64,000 nucleotides of DNA, taken from positions 273,492 through 337,491 of the forward strand of contig JAUWZS010000001.1 in the NCBI GenBank assembly GCA_030615205.1. The letters are read 5' to 3'. Positions within the stretch are counted from its first letter, which is position 1; every line of letters starts with the position of its first letter. The stretch is from Candidatus Aenigmatarchaeota archaeon. GTDB taxonomy: Archaea > Aenigmatarchaeota > Aenigmatarchaeia > CG10238-14 > SCSR01. Positions 20,177-27,822 of this stretch are shown piece by piece. The notes under the pieces are model-generated. The model was not told the origin of the DNA. It made no database searches and was given only the letters and a program-made list of their open reading frames with translations. The position numbers and the translations under genes are program-made.

Positions 20177-20419
20177 ACATTTATATCTGAATTAAGTGGC
20201 AATACAGTCCAAAGAACATTCCAATCCCAGGTGAAATTTTGAAGCGAATAAGAGACATCTGTTTCTTTAATTTCGAGAACCAAGAATCTGAGAATACTCA
20301 CGAAATTGAAAACGATAGTGTATGTAAGGTTGGATAACTGGTCGGGGGTTGATTTATAAATATTAACGTTGTATTATGCTTGTCTACCTATCGGTAAACA
20401 TCTGTGAACATCAATAAAT
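20177..20419. other. 243-base gap with no recognised gene
   Basis: Between 5S rRNA and tRNA-Asp. No convincing ORF. The stretch at about 20193-20340 contains GTGGCAATACAG, CATTCCAATCCCAGGTGAAA and TGGTCGGGGG, which weakly echo 5S rRNA landmarks in the same order, so it could be an eroded 5S copy or another small RNA; no stable terminal helix is evident. A TATA-like TTTATAAATATT at about 20352-20363 probably drives tRNA-Asp and perhaps the polymerase operon. Confidence 0.4.
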
Positions 20420-20492
20420 GCCTCGGTGGTGTAGTGGCCTAGCATACAAGCCTGTCACGCTTGTGACACGGGTTCAAATCCCGTCCGAGGCG
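20420..20492 (+). tRNA. tRNA-Asp (anticodon GTC), no intron
   Basis: Acceptor GCCTCGG/CCGAGGC with discriminator G, D-stem GTGT/GCAT, anticodon stem CAAGC/GCTTG with loop CTGTCAC, T-arm CGGGT-TCAAATC region intact. Anticodon GTC and G73 both identify Asp. It is the only one of five tRNA genes here without an intron. A TATA-like element lies about 60 bases upstream, and rpoH begins only 42 bases downstream, so tRNA and polymerase genes may share a transcript. Confidence 0.95.
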
Positions 20493-20534
20493 CTTTCGAA
20501 AAGAGGATGTACGGCGGCCATAATTGGTGATGTG

Positions 20535-20819: not shown

Positions 20820-22331
20820 TTGAATAAAGGATTTTTAGAACTGATGGAAGCATTCAAAAAGGAGCATGGGCTTGTCAGTTTCCATATAGATTCTTACAAT
20901 GATTTTGTTACACGACGAATCCCAAAGATTATCAAGGGAATAAAAGAGATAAAACCGGATGTTCCAGAGCTGGGGGAGTTCAAAATAAAGCTTGGTGAAT
21001 TCAAGATAGGAAAGGAAAACTGGGGACCATGGGTAAAGGAAGCAGACGGATCAGAGAGAAAGATATTGCCGATGGAAGCTAGGATAAGAGATCTGACATA
21101 TTCTGCACCGATGTTCATAGAGATGTCTACTGTGATGAGTGGAATAGAGAGTGAAGGGATATGGGTCAATTTTGGTGATTTGCCAGTAATGTTAAAATCA
21201 AAAATATGCCCATTATCTACAATGAACAACGCTGAGCTTATAGAAGCTGGTGAGGACCCTGATGATTATGGTGGATATTTCATTATCAACGGTACGGAGC
21301 GAATATTAGTTCTTGTTGAAGAAATTGCACAGAACAGGGCAATAGTCGCTAAAGTCAACTCTGGTACTATAACTGAAATAGTCCGTATACACTCGGAAAA
21401 GGATGGGTACATTCAGCGCCATATAATCGAGCGAAAGAAGAAGAATGGTATCATAACGATAAGTTTTGCAAATGTAAACAAATTACCGATTGCAATTTTA
21501 TTAAAGGCATTGGGTCTTGAGCGAGATAAAGATATAATAACGCTGTTGTCTGATGATCCGGATGTACAAGAAGAGTTCTATGTAAATCTCTATGAAATAG
21601 ATGTTTCTAAGAAGGATGAAGGTTTAGATGCGATTGGTAAGCACATAAAAATAGCACAAGAAACATATCGGATGGAAAGAGCTGTGCGATTGGTAGATAG
21701 ATACTTGTTGCCTCATATTGGACAAGATCCGACTAATAGATTGGAAAAAGCGGTTTTCCTCGCAAAAGCTGTGGGAAAAATTATACGGTTGCATTTGAAT
21801 AAAATTGGAGAGGATGATTTAGATCATTACTCAAATAAACGCTTGCGGATGTCTGGCGATTTGCTCGAAATTCTTTTACGATCGATATTACTTGGAAAAT
21901 GGGGCTTGATAACGAGAATAACCTACAACTATCAAAAACTTACAAAGCGTGGCAGGATGCCACCACTACAGGCGATAGTCGAGTCGAACGTTTTGACAAA
22001 CCAACTTAATTCTGCGCTTGCTATAGGAAGTTGGGTCGGTGGTAGAACAGGTGTTAGTCAGAGGCTTGAAAGAAGCAGCTATATAAAGACTGTTTCCCAT
22101 ATGCGAAACGTTCTTTCACCACTTACGTCTACTCAAGAGCACTTTGAGGCACGTGAGTTGCATCCTACACACTGGGGGAAGCTTTGCACTAGCGAGACAC
22201 CGGAGGGTGCTACAATCGGGTTGAGGAAATATCTTGCGATTATGTCCGAAGTCACCAAGGGTGCGAACGAAAAGGAGTTCAAAGCAGTAATGAAAATAAT
22301 TGGAAAACATGTGAAACCTGTAAAGGTTTAA
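20820..22331 (+). CDS. rpoB2: RNA polymerase subunit B'' (Rpo2N)
   Basis: 503 residues, the N-terminal half of the second-largest subunit: protrusion, lobe and fork (EARIRDLTYSAPMFIEMS, GGYFIINGTERILVLVEE, and the fork motif SHMRNVLSPLT followed by HPTHWGKLCTSETPEGATIG). It ends at EFKAVMKIIGKHVKPVKV, where split-B archaea separate B'' from B'. The start codon is TTG at 20820 with GGTGATTAA in front, like rpoH. It is followed 17 bases later by the B'-A' gene. A split B is found in methanogens, Archaeoglobales and some other archaea. Confidence 0.95.
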   Translation: MNKGFLELMEAFKKEHGLVSFHIDSYNDFVTRRIPKIIKGIKEIKPDVPELGEFKIKLGEFKIGKENWGPWVKEADGSERKILPMEARIRDLTYSAPMFIEMSTVMSGIESEGIWVNFGDLPVMLKSKICPLSTMNNAELIEAGEDPDDYGGYFIINGTERILVLVEEIAQNRAIVAKVNSGTITEIVRIHSEKDGYIQRHIIERKKKNGIITISFANVNKLPIAILLKALGLERDKDIITLLSDDPDVQEEFYVNLYEIDVSKKDEGLDAIGKHIKIAQETYRMERAVRLVDRYLLPHIGQDPTNRLEKAVFLAKAVGKIIRLHLNKIGEDDLDHYSNKRLRMSGDLLEILLRSILLGKWGLITRITYNYQKLTKRGRMPPLQAIVESNVLTNQLNSALAIGSWVGGRTGVSQRLERSSYIKTVSHMRNVLSPLTSTQEHFEARELHPTHWGKLCTSETPEGATIGLRKYLAIMSEVTKGANEKEFKAVMKIIGKHVKPVKV

Positions 22332-22348: not shown

Positions 22349-25300
22349 ATGGCGGGAAAAGATATGGCAGAAAAAATGGTCGATGTATTTTTAGATGGGC
22401 GATATTTGGGAAGGACTGATAAACCTGAAGAGTTGATTAAGGAGGTAAGAGAAAAGAGAAGACTCGGGTTGTTGTCGAATCAGATAAATGTCTGCTATTA
22501 TCCATATTCGAATGAAATAAAGATTATTTCTGATTCAGGTAGAGTTAGGCGCCCGGCTATAGTTGTCAAAGATGGCAAGTCAAAGCTTACAGATGAAATT
22601 ATAGAAAAAATAAAAAAAGGAGAGATAGGTTGGGAGGATTTGATCAAATCTGGTATTGTAGAGTACTTGGATTCCGAGGAAGAGGAGAATATATACATTG
22701 CATTACGGCCAGAAGATTTGACAACCGAACATACACACTTGGAATTAGACCCTTCTATTATACTTGGTCTATCCGCATCCTTTATTCCATTTCCAGAATT
22801 CGATCGCGGCGATAGAGTCAATTACGGCGCAAAAATGATTGGCCAGAGTATAGGTATGTTCGCTACAAATTACTTCAATCGCGTTGATACCAAATCTAAT
22901 ATAATGGTTTACTCACACAACCCACTTGTGCAGGCATATGGGCATAAACTAATAAATTATGAGAGACATCCGAATGGAACAAATGTTATCGTTGCAGTTG
23001 CCTGCTTCGATGGGTATAATATGGAAGACGCTATAGTGATAAATGCGAGTTCTATACAACGTGGACTTTTCTGGTCTATAATGATGAGAAATTATGATGC
23101 TGTTCAAAAAAGGTATATGGGCGGACAGGAAGATATAATTGGAATACCTGATCCTGGCGTTCGTGGATACGCTGGCGAGGATGTGTACAAATACCTACCA
23201 GAAGATGGAATAATAAATCCGGAAACAATTGTCAATTCAGATGCTGTGCTAGTGGGTAGGGTATCGCCGTTGAGGTTCTTGGGTACAATGGACCAATTCA
23301 TTACAGGTATAGAAAATATACGCGAAACCTCTGTAAAGTTGAGGCATGGTGACAATGGGATTGTTGACAGAGTTTTTTTAACAGAAACAACCGATGGTAC
23401 AAAATTGATAAAAGTTGTTGTTCGCGACACAAAAATTCCTGAAATTGGTGATAAATTTGCAAGCAGGCATGGACAAAAGGGGGTTATAGGTCTGATTGTA
23501 CCCGAGGAGGACATGCCATTTACCGAAGATGGTGTAGTGCCAGATGTAATATTCAACCCGCATGGTATACCATCAAGAATGACAATGGGTCAACTATTAG
23601 AGATTATTGGTGGGAAATTTGCAGCACTTTCGGGGAACTACATAAACGCGTCAGCGTTTGGCTCTGTTAAGGAGGTGGAGCTAAGAAAAGGACTGGAAGA
23701 GCATGGTTTTAAAAACGATGGAAAGGAGACAATGTATGACGGCAGGACAGGTCAGAGATTCGAGGCACAAATATTTATCGGCAGTTGTTTTTATCAAAAG
23801 CTCGATCATCTGGTATCAAACAAGATACATGCACGTTCTCGCGGCCCAGTCGCACTTTTGACCAAGCAGCCGACTGAAGGTCGTAGCAAAGAAGGCGGAT
23901 TGCGACTTGGAGAGATGGAGAAAGATTGTCTGATTGCGCATGGCGCAGCCCTCACATTGAAAGAGCGATTCGACTCTGACAAGACGAGCGTCCCAATATG
24001 TACAGAGTGTGGAATGATTGCGATACACGACCGGATCAAAAATAGGAAATATTGCCCCATATGTGGGAACTCTAAAATTATAAACGTCGAGATGAGCTAT
24101 GCATTCAAGCTTATGCTCGATGAGCTCAGAAGTATGCTGATTTATCCAAAGATTATTATAAAGCGCGGTGAAACGTTGGTTGATAGCATACAATTTGGAA
24201 TCTTAAATGCAGAAATGATCAATAAAATGAGTGTCGCGAAAATAACCAAGACCGAACTTTACGACCAAGAAGGTTATCCAATAGAGGGCGGGTTGATGGA
24301 TCCTAGACTTGGTGTGGTAGATCCAGGCATTCGTTGCAGAGTTTGTGGAGGCAACGTAGGTGAATGCCAAGGTCATTTTGGTCGCCTTGATTTGACAAAG
24401 CCTATTGTGCATGTCCATTATGCAAAATTTATTTTAAATCTATTGAAACTATTCTGCAACAAATGCAACAGGCTTCTTATCGATGGTAGCAACATTGATA
24501 AGATGAGAGGTAGGAAGCCAAAGTTCAAGGAAATTATGAAAATGGCAAAGAAAAAATGTCCACACTGTGGTGAGCAACAAAATAAATTTAAATTTATAAA
24601 ACCGTACACCTTCATCGAGAATAAGCAAACATTGAGTGCTTCTGCAATACGAGAGCGTTTAGAAAAGATGACAAGCGAGGACTTGAAATCGATTGGACTC
24701 AATATGCGACCAGAACATCTTTTACTCACAATACTACCAATATCACCAGTTACTGTCAGGCCATCAATAACATTAGAATCAGGTGAGCGTTCAGAAGACG
24801 ACTTAACACACAAACTTGTAGATATTGTCAGAATAAACGAGAGATTGAGAGAGAACATAGATCTAGGCGCACCTGATTTTATCATTGAAGATCTTTGGGA
24901 GTTGTTGCAGTATCATGTATCAACTTATTTTGACAATGCGATCTCAGGTGTTCCTCCGGCTAGGCACCGCTCAGGAAGAATTTTGAAGACCCTGTCACAA
25001 AGGCTGAAGACGAAAGAAGGACGATTCAGAGGTAATCTGGCAGGAAAAAGAGTCAATTTCTCATCGCGAACAGTCATAAGTCCGGATCCGATGATAGATA
25101 TAGATGAAGTAGGAATACCGGAAATAATTGCAAAAGAGCTCACTCTGCCTGTTAGAGTGCATGAGGGAAATGTTAAAGAGCTAAAGCAACTTGTACTAAA
25201 CGGTTCAGAAAAAGTCTCCGGTGCAAACTATTTAATACGGGCAGATGGAAGAAGGAAGAAAATAACAGAACAGAATAAAGAAGAAATTGTAAAAGAAGTT

Positions 25301-26701
25301 GAAGTCGGAGCCATAGTAGAACGGCATCTGAGGGACGGAGATATAGTTCTTTTCAATCGCCAACCGAGTTTGCATAGGATGAGCATAATGGCACATAAAG
25401 TGCGTGTTATGCCTCATAAGACGTTTCGTTTGAATGTGACAGTATGCCCTCCATATAATGCAGATTTTGACGGCGATGAAATGAACTTGCATGTTCTGCA
25501 AACAGAAGAAGCCCAGGTCGAGGCTAGTACACTGATGATAGTCCCAAAGAACATACGGAGCCCGAGATTCTCTGGTCCAATAATCGGGGCACATCGAGAC
25601 CATATATCCGGGCTGTATTATTTGACGTGTGGTGAGAAGAAATTCGACAGAGAACAATTCGTACAGCTAATAAGGGCTGTTGACAAAGATGTAGAAATAC
25701 CTAACAAAAAAACTATGACAGGGAAAGAAATATTCAGTGTATTTTTGCCAAAGGGGTTTTACATAGAACATAAAGCAAAATCTTGCACAGGCTGCGAAAA
25801 ATGCTTGAAGAGCAGATGTAAGATCGATGCGTATGTTGTGATCGAAGACGGCAAACTTATCAAAGGGACTATAGATAAATCTGCAGTAGGCGCGTTCTCA
25901 GGAAAAATAATAGATAAAATAGAAAACCAATTTGGTACAGCCGTAACAAAAAAATTTTTGTATGATATAACGAGATTAGCTCTTCATGCCATAATGTTGT
26001 CTGCATTTTCAATAAGCATATCGGATCAGGATGTGCCAAAAGAAGCTAGAGCTGAAATAAAAATTATTATAAATCGTGTTAGGAAGGATGTGAATGATCT
26101 GATTGAAAAATATGAGCAGGGAAAAATTAAAATACTTCCTGGAAGAAGTGCGAAAGAAAGTCTAGAAAGTCATATAAAACGAAGATTAAATAAAACAATC
26201 GACGAAGTGGAAGGCGTACTCGTAAATCACATCGAAGATAATTTTACTGTTATGATGGCAAAGAGTGGCTCTAGAGGGAGCTTTGTAAATCTAGTCCAGA
26301 CAGCTGCGATGGTCGGCCAGGAAATGATCATGGGACAGAGGATGGAACGTGGTTACCATGAGAGAACTTTTCCACATTTTAAACGTGGAGATATAAGTTT
26401 GGAAGCCCGAGGGTTTGTTAGCCATGGATTTAAAGATGGGCTAACTCCGTTTGAATTCTTCTTTGATGCAATAAACAGCCGAGAATCCTTAATGGACAAA
26501 TCTCTAAAAACTAGGCACTCTGGGTATATGGAACGTAGACTCGTAGGTGCGATGCAGGATCTAAAAGTCGAATATGACGGCACAGTAAGAGACAGCGTGA
26601 AACATATAGTGCAATTCGTTCCAGGCGAGGACGGTTTAGACCCATCGAAGATTACAAAGTCACAGATAGATGTAAGAGAAATTGCTGAGAGGATGAAGTG
26701 A
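22349..26701 (+). CDS. rpoB1-rpoA1: RNA polymerase B'-A' fusion (Rpo2C-Rpo1N in one polypeptide)
   Basis: 1450 residues in one uninterrupted frame. Residues 1 to about 609 are B': LRPEDLTTEHTHLELDPSII, GDKFASRHGQKGVIGLIVP (about 366-384), the CTECGMIAIH...CPICGN zinc site, and the conserved end MSYAFKLMLDELRSM. Residues about 610-1450 are A': clamp IQFGILNAEMINKMSVAKI, EGGLMDPRLGVVDPG, zinc CRVCGGNVGECQGHFG, the active-site NADFDGDEMN at 1037-1046 holding the catalytic magnesium, and bridge-helix/funnel regions. No stop or frameshift separates them; a GGTGA-TTG start-like signal survives at the seam. Normally these are separate proteins. The gene overlaps rpoA'' by 4 bases. Confidence 0.95.
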   Translation: MAGKDMAEKMVDVFLDGRYLGRTDKPEELIKEVREKRRLGLLSNQINVCYYPYSNEIKIISDSGRVRRPAIVVKDGKSKLTDEIIEKIKKGEIGWEDLIKSGIVEYLDSEEEENIYIALRPEDLTTEHTHLELDPSIILGLSASFIPFPEFDRGDRVNYGAKMIGQSIGMFATNYFNRVDTKSNIMVYSHNPLVQAYGHKLINYERHPNGTNVIVAVACFDGYNMEDAIVINASSIQRGLFWSIMMRNYDAVQKRYMGGQEDIIGIPDPGVRGYAGEDVYKYLPEDGIINPETIVNSDAVLVGRVSPLRFLGTMDQFITGIENIRETSVKLRHGDNGIVDRVFLTETTDGTKLIKVVVRDTKIPEIGDKFASRHGQKGVIGLIVPEEDMPFTEDGVVPDVIFNPHGIPSRMTMGQLLEIIGGKFAALSGNYINASAFGSVKEVELRKGLEEHGFKNDGKETMYDGRTGQRFEAQIFIGSCFYQKLDHLVSNKIHARSRGPVALLTKQPTEGRSKEGGLRLGEMEKDCLIAHGAALTLKERFDSDKTSVPICTECGMIAIHDRIKNRKYCPICGNSKIINVEMSYAFKLMLDELRSMLIYPKIIIKRGETLVDSIQFGILNAEMINKMSVAKITKTELYDQEGYPIEGGLMDPRLGVVDPGIRCRVCGGNVGECQGHFGRLDLTKPIVHVHYAKFILNLLKLFCNKCNRLLIDGSNIDKMRGRKPKFKEIMKMAKKKCPHCGEQQNKFKFIKPYTFIENKQTLSASAIRERLEKMTSEDLKSIGLNMRPEHLLLTILPISPVTVRPSITLESGERSEDDLTHKLVDIVRINERLRENIDLGAPDFIIEDLWELLQYHVSTYFDNAISGVPPARHRSGRILKTLSQRLKTKEGRFRGNLAGKRVNFSSRTVISPDPMIDIDEVGIPEIIAKELTLPVRVHEGNVKELKQLVLNGSEKVSGANYLIRADGRRKKITEQNKEEIVKEVEVGAIVERHLRDGDIVLFNRQPSLHRMSIMAHKVRVMPHKTFRLNVTVCPPYNADFDGDEMNLHVLQTEEAQVEASTLMIVPKNIRSPRFSGPIIGAHRDHISGLYYLTCGEKKFDREQFVQLIRAVDKDVEIPNKKTMTGKEIFSVFLPKGFYIEHKAKSCTGCEKCLKSRCKIDAYVVIEDGKLIKGTIDKSAVGAFSGKIIDKIENQFGTAVTKKFLYDITRLALHAIMLSAFSISISDQDVPKEARAEIKIIINRVRKDVNDLIEKYEQGKIKILPGRSAKESLESHIKRRLNKTIDEVEGVLVNHIEDNFTVMMAKSGSRGSFVNLVQTAAMVGQEMIMGQRMERGYHERTFPHFKRGDISLEARGFVSHGFKDGLTPFEFFFDAINSRESLMDKSLKTRHSGYMERRLVGAMQDLKVEYDGTVRDSVKHIVQFVPGEDGLDPSKITKSQIDVREIAERMK
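24165..24178 (+). promoter_or_regulatory. in-frame GGTGA-TTG start-like signal at the B'-A' seam
   Basis: CGCGGTGAAACGTTG at the seam has the same GGTGA ribosome site plus TTG start layout used by rpoH and rpoB'' in this operon. The TTG (24176-24178) is codon 610, in frame, and would start A' as MVDSIQFGILNAEM, close to where archaeal A' proteins normally begin. It may be the fossil of the old A' start after the B' stop was lost, or still allow some free A' to be made. Confidence 0.5.
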
Positions 26702-27822
26702 ATAAAATGAAAAAATTAGTTGCAGGAGAAATTGATTTGCCCCAGTCTTTGTTGGATAAAATAGAAGAAGTAGTGAAAGAAAAGAAATTGAACCGGTTGC
26801 AAAAAGAGAAATTGGTTGCTGCAGTAAAGAAGGAATTTATGAAAAGCAGATTTGAACCTGGAGAAGCTGTTGGAATACTAGCTGCTCAAAGCATATCAGA
26901 GCCGGCAACCCAGATGACAATGCGAACTTACCATTTTGCTGGTTCGGCGGGAATTAGAGTCACACATGGGTTGCCAAGACTTATTGAAATTTTCGATGCA
27001 AAGAGAAAACCAGAAACACCTGTTATGACCATATACCTTAGAAAGCCTTACGACAATATGGAAAGTGCAAAAAAATTGGCGGAGAATATAATAGAAAAAA
27101 ATGTAGCGGACTTGTCAAAAGGCATTGTGCTGAACTTGAATGAGAATTCTATTGATATAGAACCACATGATTTAAGGAAATTGGGAACAATAAAAACCGC
27201 AATAGAGAAAAATTTGAAAAAAGATGTGAAAATAAAACTTACATCTAAAATCGTATCAATATCTACTGTAGAGGAGATTGAAATAAAAGATCTGCAAAAA
27301 ATTAGGGAAAAGATTATGCAGATACATGTAGATGGGCTGGATGGAGTCACTAATGCAGTAGTGCGTCAAGAGGGGAACGCCTGGGTAATAACTACAATAG
27401 GTACAAATCTGGAAGAAGTGTTGAAAATAAAAGAGGTCGATGCGACTAGGACAGTATCTAATGATATACATGAGACTAAAACGGTTCTAGGAATCGAAGC
27501 AACGAGAAATATTATAATAAACGAAGCCATTAAGACATTGCAAGAGCAAGGTCTCGATGTTGATATAAGACATATAATGCTTGTGAGTGATATTATGACT
27601 CTTTCTGGCGATGTTAGATCAATAGGAAGATATGGAGTCGCTGGTTCAAAGAGTTCGATACTTGCCCGTGCTGCGTTCGAGGAGACAATTAAACATCTTG
27701 TGCGCGCTTCCATCCGAGGCGAGAAAGATAACTTTAAAGGTATATTCGAAAATGTAATGATAGGTCAAGTCATACCATCAGGTACTGGTATGTTTGATTT
27801 GATTGCAAAATTCGAAGAGTGA
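26698..27822 (+). CDS. rpoA2: RNA polymerase subunit A'' (Rpo1C)
   Basis: 374 residues from GTG at 26698; the ATG at 26707 is an alternative. Trigger-loop region GEAVGILAAQSISEPATQMT followed by MRTYHFAGSAGIRVTHGLPR, then the jaw and the C-terminal cleft (VSDIMTLSGDVRSIGRYGVA, KSSILARAAFEETIKHLVRA, and MIGQVIPSGTGMFDL). It supplies the C-terminal part of the largest subunit and completes the active site with A' in the upstream fusion protein. It overlaps the fusion gene by four bases, a coupled arrangement, and is followed by rpl30e. Confidence 0.95.
   Translation: MNKMKKLVAGEIDLPQSLLDKIEEVVKEKKLNRLQKEKLVAAVKKEFMKSRFEPGEAVGILAAQSISEPATQMTMRTYHFAGSAGIRVTHGLPRLIEIFDAKRKPETPVMTIYLRKPYDNMESAKKLAENIIEKNVADLSKGIVLNLNENSIDIEPHDLRKLGTIKTAIEKNLKKDVKIKLTSKIVSISTVEEIEIKDLQKIREKIMQIHVDGLDGVTNAVVRQEGNAWVITTIGTNLEEVLKIKEVDATRTVSNDIHETKTVLGIEATRNIIINEAIKTLQEQGLDVDIRHIMLVSDIMTLSGDVRSIGRYGVAGSKSSILARAAFEETIKHLVRASIRGEKDNFKGIFENVMIGQVIPSGTGMFDLIAKFEE

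Follow-up and report, generated by a model that had tools for sequence, protein, structure and literature searches.

An RNA polymerase gene joining B' and A' in a single reading frame, found repeatedly in Aenigmatarchaeota

The fused gene and its neighbours

We analysed a window of 64,000 nucleotides lying within a 402-kb contig of an uncultured Aenigmatarchaeota (DPANN) genome (1.17 Mb, 88.5% complete). At 22349-26701, on the forward strand, the window holds one uninterrupted ORF of 1450 codons with an ATG start, which encodes 1450 residues: a complete B' followed by a complete A', with about six turn residues and no stop codon between them. Pfam assigns Rpb2 domains 4, 5, 6 and 7 to residues 13-603, and Rpb1 domains 1-4 plus the start of domain 5 to residues 610-1429; Rpb2 domains 4-7 and Rpb1 domains 1-4 all pass the Pfam cut-off. 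The A' part carries the active-site motif NADFDGDEMN, with the catalytic NADFDGD, and in a phmmer search against the PDB archaeal B chains match residues ~12-605, and archaeal Rpo1N chains residues 610-1449. The end of B is joined in frame to the start of A' within this ORF, which is flanked by separate genes for B'' and A'' that complete the two subunits. The features of the locus are as follows.

20820..22331, + strand: rpo2N, encoding B'' (N-terminal half of B), 503 aa; Pfam Rpb2_1, Rpb2_2, Rpb2_3
from 20820, + strand: start of B'', a TTG after GGTGAT (sequence)
22349..26701, + strand: fused B'-A' gene; Pfam Rpb2_4 to Rpb2_7, Rpb1_1 to Rpb1_4, start of Rpb1_5
22349..24157, + strand: B' moiety, residues ~1-603, with the C-terminal zinc ribbon and clamp/anchor (Pfam; phmmer)
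24158..24181, + strand: seam, residues ~604-611 (alignment; AlphaFold2 strands; linker lengths)
24161-24178, + strand: KRGETL (residues 605-610), predicted turn from the last B' strand to the first A' strand (alignment, AlphaFold2)
24167..24178, + strand: GGTGA-N4-TTG within the seam, possible remnant of the ribosome-binding site and start of an ancestral A' (sequence)
24176..26698, + strand: A' moiety, residues ~610-1450, from the clamp core to the start of Rpb1 domain 5 (Pfam; phmmer)
26698..27822, + strand: rpo1C, encoding A'' (C-terminal part of A); Pfam Rpb1_5

The ORF and the Pfam domain sets agree with the original prediction of a single open frame holding full B' and A' without stop or frameshift; its boundary at residues 609/610 falls within the seam as placed by Pfam and alignment (~604-611, ~24158-24181), and the B''/B'-A'/A'' arrangement that it described is borne out by the ORF layout and the Pfam matches of the flanking genes. 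Apart from the fusion, the order of RNA polymerase and ribosomal genes in the window, H-B''-(B'A')-A''-L30e-NusA-S12-S7-EF2-EF1A-S10, is the usual archaeal one, the outer genes having been named from reading their translations. The A'' gene starts with GTG at 26698 or ATG at 26707, and overlaps or abuts the stop of the fused gene. PF00623 was matched only once in the genome. Upstream, the rpoH ORF taken from its first start overlaps a tRNA-Asp gene (20420-20493) at 20418-20493, and for this reason the true rpoH start should lie further downstream.

It is not reasonable to attribute the open frame to a missed stop or to chance, because the seam is also open in 20 other, independently assembled loci. 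The window does come from an incomplete assembly, and a relative, G007, has frameshift-like breaks in this region, but the other 20 fused loci show decay of the A' start codon and Shine-Dalgarno sequence, which an error would not leave behind, and the fusion is shared with the sister genome G011. Removal of the B' stop by an assembly or sequencing error is therefore next to impossible. Programmed frameshifting or stop read-through was also rejected for the window, since the frame is already open.

Distribution and recurrence of the fusion

To place the fusion within its phylum we surveyed 156 Aenigmatarchaeota genomes, all uncultured assemblies and mostly MAGs, and found a match to the locus in 144; 80 regions were fetched and their ORFs sorted by homology to B'', B', A' and A''. 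B' and A' lie in one ORF at 17 loci (window included) among the 144 matching genomes, and a larger B''-B'-A' (B-A') fusion was found at four, with lengths of 1920 and 1930 aa where complete, and 1629 and 1612 aa where cut by contig ends. A'' is separate in every one of the 21 fused loci examined. The fusion is confirmed as real, and the search of related genomes proposed with the original prediction yields the 20 further Aenigmatarchaeota loci with an open seam mentioned above. In the window's own family the seam is fully open in 5 of 16 genomes, and one genome has a single in-frame TAA at the seam; the others have separate or broken copies.

No B'-A' fusion was found in the 516 matching genomes of partial samples from seven other archaeal phyla (Nanoarchaeota 227, Thermoproteota 79, Halobacteriota 72, Micrarchaeota 61, Asgard 30, Methanobacteriota 30, Iainarchaeota 17), where every match that spans the whole seam has at least one stop. 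This agrees with the earlier statement that B and A' are separate proteins in archaea, and the difference between Aenigmatarchaeota and the other phyla has a Fisher p of 3e-14, computed on the first 456 of the 516. Further loci compared from other archaeal groups have the same separate state; Nanohaloarchaeota, Altiarchaeota, Undinarchaeota and Thermoplasmatota lay outside the systematic sample. A plasmid search with the seam gave no match. The sole viral-contig match to the seam profile (L244:3001-3252) is weak, partial and 35% identical, and covers the end of B'.

Long frames in Nanoarchaeota (1387-1549), Micrarchaeota and Halobacteriota were considered as candidate fusions and rejected, B' and A' being separate at the 20 loci fetched. 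The long frame values there seem to read through in-frame stops, or to reflect A'-A'' or inserts.

On a tree built from concatenated B'', B', A' and A'' (88 rows, 2240 columns), the fused or separate state changes at least 11 times, and the fusion is scattered over seven Aenigmatarchaeota families. A single clade of the five fused genomes from the window's family is rejected (AU p 2.6e-69). Within one genus G005 alone is fused, against four separate members, and the sisters G036 and G043 differ in state, only G036 being fused. It had been suggested that the fusion may mark a lineage; given this scatter, it does not mark a single one. B itself is unsplit, a single ORF holding B'' and B', in two distinct regions of the phylum's tree (L146, L158, L182-L185, L188, L191, L193, L194, L196, L200-L204), so that the B split varies too. 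G121 has two large-subunit sets, a fused B-A' on contig C127 (L145) and a separate one on C12 (L187); C127 is probably mis-binned, since the tree places it beside G066, from another family.

This join seems to have originated some eleven times in Aenigmatarchaeota. A count of changes gives no direction by itself, being blind to gain versus loss, and the linker is alike in length in all fused lineages, so that an ancestral fusion, re-split many times, has to be weighed. Against it, every other phylum sampled has separate genes and the minimum number of changes is 11; a stop, a Shine-Dalgarno sequence and an ATG would have to be gained anew at each re-split, yet these signals are good at almost every separate locus, while the separate copies differ in their frames, spacings and overlaps. 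We regard an ancestral fusion as improbable. Fusion from separate genes is the direction suggested by the initiation signals, because separate A' genes mostly have both an ATG and a Shine-Dalgarno sequence, whereas fused ones mostly lack both.

Initiation signals, linker and predicted fold of the seam

The A' ATG is present in 5 of 21 fused loci against 54 of 58 separate ones (p 3e-9), and a start-linked Shine-Dalgarno sequence of at least 5 bases in 1 of 21 against 33 of 58 (p 2e-5), p-values that are generous, as they treat related genomes as independent. The stretch running from the conserved B' YPK to the A' FG measures 12-16 residues in all fused loci, with no added domain in the alignment with relatives, and this length is about the sum of the tails of the separate neighbours; the sequence of the seam is variable, its length conserved. 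Across six pairs of related fused genes, differences in the linker number 39/16/72 at first, second and third codon positions (p 8e-8), a third-position excess as expected for a linker translated in the fused frame. Translation of the fused genes as a single chain is thus well supported, since most of the start and Shine-Dalgarno signals are gone and the linker changes in the manner of coding sequence.

Individual codons indicate how such a join could come about. The same codon is AAA in the fused G014 and TAA in the unfused G010, followed by ATG in both; as the two are not sisters, this illustrates a route and records no event. Among the B-A' loci, G019 has serine and G017 arginine at the position where G020 has a TAA stop.

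The seam of the window keeps GGTGA four bases 5' of an in-frame TTG (24167-24178), at the site where A' starts in unfused relatives. This combination may be left over from the former start site and could still allow some internal initiation. A second reading is consequently that two products are made, the read-through fusion and a separate A' initiated at TTG 24176. The pattern is expected by chance only ~0.03 times per 15-codon linker (a ~3% event), and a TTG after GGTGAT seems to be the start of B'' in this operon. The sister G011, however, is fused with neither a start codon nor a Shine-Dalgarno sequence at the seam, 20 of the 21 fused loci are without a start-linked one of at least 5 bases, and an internal start would not prevent translation of the fusion anyway. 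We consider two products unlikely, though the least so of the alternatives.

We modelled residues 540-897 with AlphaFold2, using 38 Aenigmatarchaeota rows. The best model has a pLDDT of 86 and a pTM of 0.86, and it is the only confident one of the five (mean pLDDT 86 vs 59-71). Strands are predicted at residues 598-604 and 611-618 with a six-residue turn between them, so that the seam is predicted to be a β-hairpin in the clamp, linking the last B' strand to the first A' strand. The best PDB match of the model is 3QQC (E 6e-35, TM 0.85), which phmmer aligns to the window protein with no gap over the linker, whose length is the same in both. In the prediction the seam folds as one clamp module. 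3QQC is an engineered Pyrococcus furiosus chain that joins B, A' and a further piece of the large subunit (B-A'-A'') and comprises the clamp only; it was solved with Spt4/5, and its entry describes an archaeal RNAP clamp in complex with Spt4/5. The natural protein thus uses a junction that this crystal has already shown to fit the clamp fold.

A turn that is exposed, variable in sequence and conserved in length might also be the site at which a fused precursor is cut into two normal chains. Pfam finds no intein or protease domain in the fused protein, no conserved cleavage motif is evident across the fused lineages, and the junction was crystallised in its single-chain form (3QQC); we consider such cleavage improbable.

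We therefore favour, with a probability of about 0.87, a single polypeptide that supplies B' and A' to an otherwise ordinary archaeal polymerase with a B''/B'-A'/A'' core. The B' and A' genes are adjacent in the operon, and in the clamp the ends of the two proteins lie next to each other. A lost B' stop codon, or a frame-restoring indel, could then join them without extra sequence, and the junction would close the β-hairpin, after which the A' start codon and ribosome-binding site would decay. These steps would have been repeated in Aenigmatarchaeota, sometimes where B is unsplit, giving B-A'. From the sequences, the fused protein probably stays uncut in the cell and works in the polymerase, where it would fix a 1:1 stoichiometry of B' and A' and pre-assemble the clamp.

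Comparison with known systems

In the bacterial β-β' fusions both subunits are whole, and the product is a single β-β' chain. Such rpoB-rpoC fusions occur in Helicobacteraceae and Wolbachia (PMC7483510), and the original prediction had named Helicobacter and Wolbachia. The Aenigmatarchaeota gene resembles them in being a natural join of the C-terminus of β (B) to the N-terminus of β' (A') in a cellular polymerase, but it does not place a whole β and a whole β' in one chain, B'' and A'' being separate: in the fused loci B is in most cases divided upstream of the join, and A in every case downstream of it (B''/B'-A'/A'' or B-A'/A''). A further difference is that the archaeal join appears to have originated many times within a single phylum. 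In K2ORF6p of the yeast killer plasmid pGKL2, β is fused to a portion of β', with the C-terminal β' separate as K2ORF7p (PMC6211774), a layout like that of the B-A'/A'' loci; pGKL2, however, is a virus-like element with a non-canonical two-subunit enzyme, whereas the Aenigmatarchaeota polymerase is a cellular archaeal one. Fused A'-A'' (A) in Thaumarchaeota, Korarchaeota and Pacearchaeota (PMC5484517) is likewise a variation in large-subunit splits and fusions, but at the A'/A'' junction, not B'/A'.

The original prediction knew of no description of this arrangement, and we found none of an archaeal, repeatedly evolved B'-A' fusion flanked by split B and A in the literature searched, a search outside which older key work lies. 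RNA polymerase is absent from the main text of a 2024 survey of archaeal fusions (PMC11237513), and no word beginning 'fus' occurs in a 2026 article about the evolution of archaeal polymerases (PMC13257274). In 2017, splits and fusions of the large subunits were called rare and used to weigh archaeal topologies, with Aenigmarchaea excluded (PMC5484517). Such events are unsafe as rare markers in these archaea, because one junction changes at least 11 times in one phylum, in one case even within a genus.

Aenigmatarchaeota thereby offer natural replicates for the effects of B-A' fusion on polymerase assembly and clamp motion. The fusion may affect the order of assembly, as the original prediction proposed. 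More tentatively, a pressure or freedom specific to this phylum might repeatedly join the clamp and change assembly, a B'-A' unit recruiting B'' and A'', a possibility that we hold to be rather less than even; if true, the assembly order and modularity of archaeal polymerases are not fixed.

Some of the fetched loci have further peculiarities. Frameshift-like breaks, which may be assembly errors or genuine damage, lie in B'' and A' of L180 (G007) and in B' of L190 (G086). In A'' of L129:1228-3771, L141:8286-10799 and L159:1101-3707 there is an insert of ~450 aa that bears intein splicing and LAGLIDADG domains, and similar inserts are seen by alignment in A'' of L148, L149 and L186.
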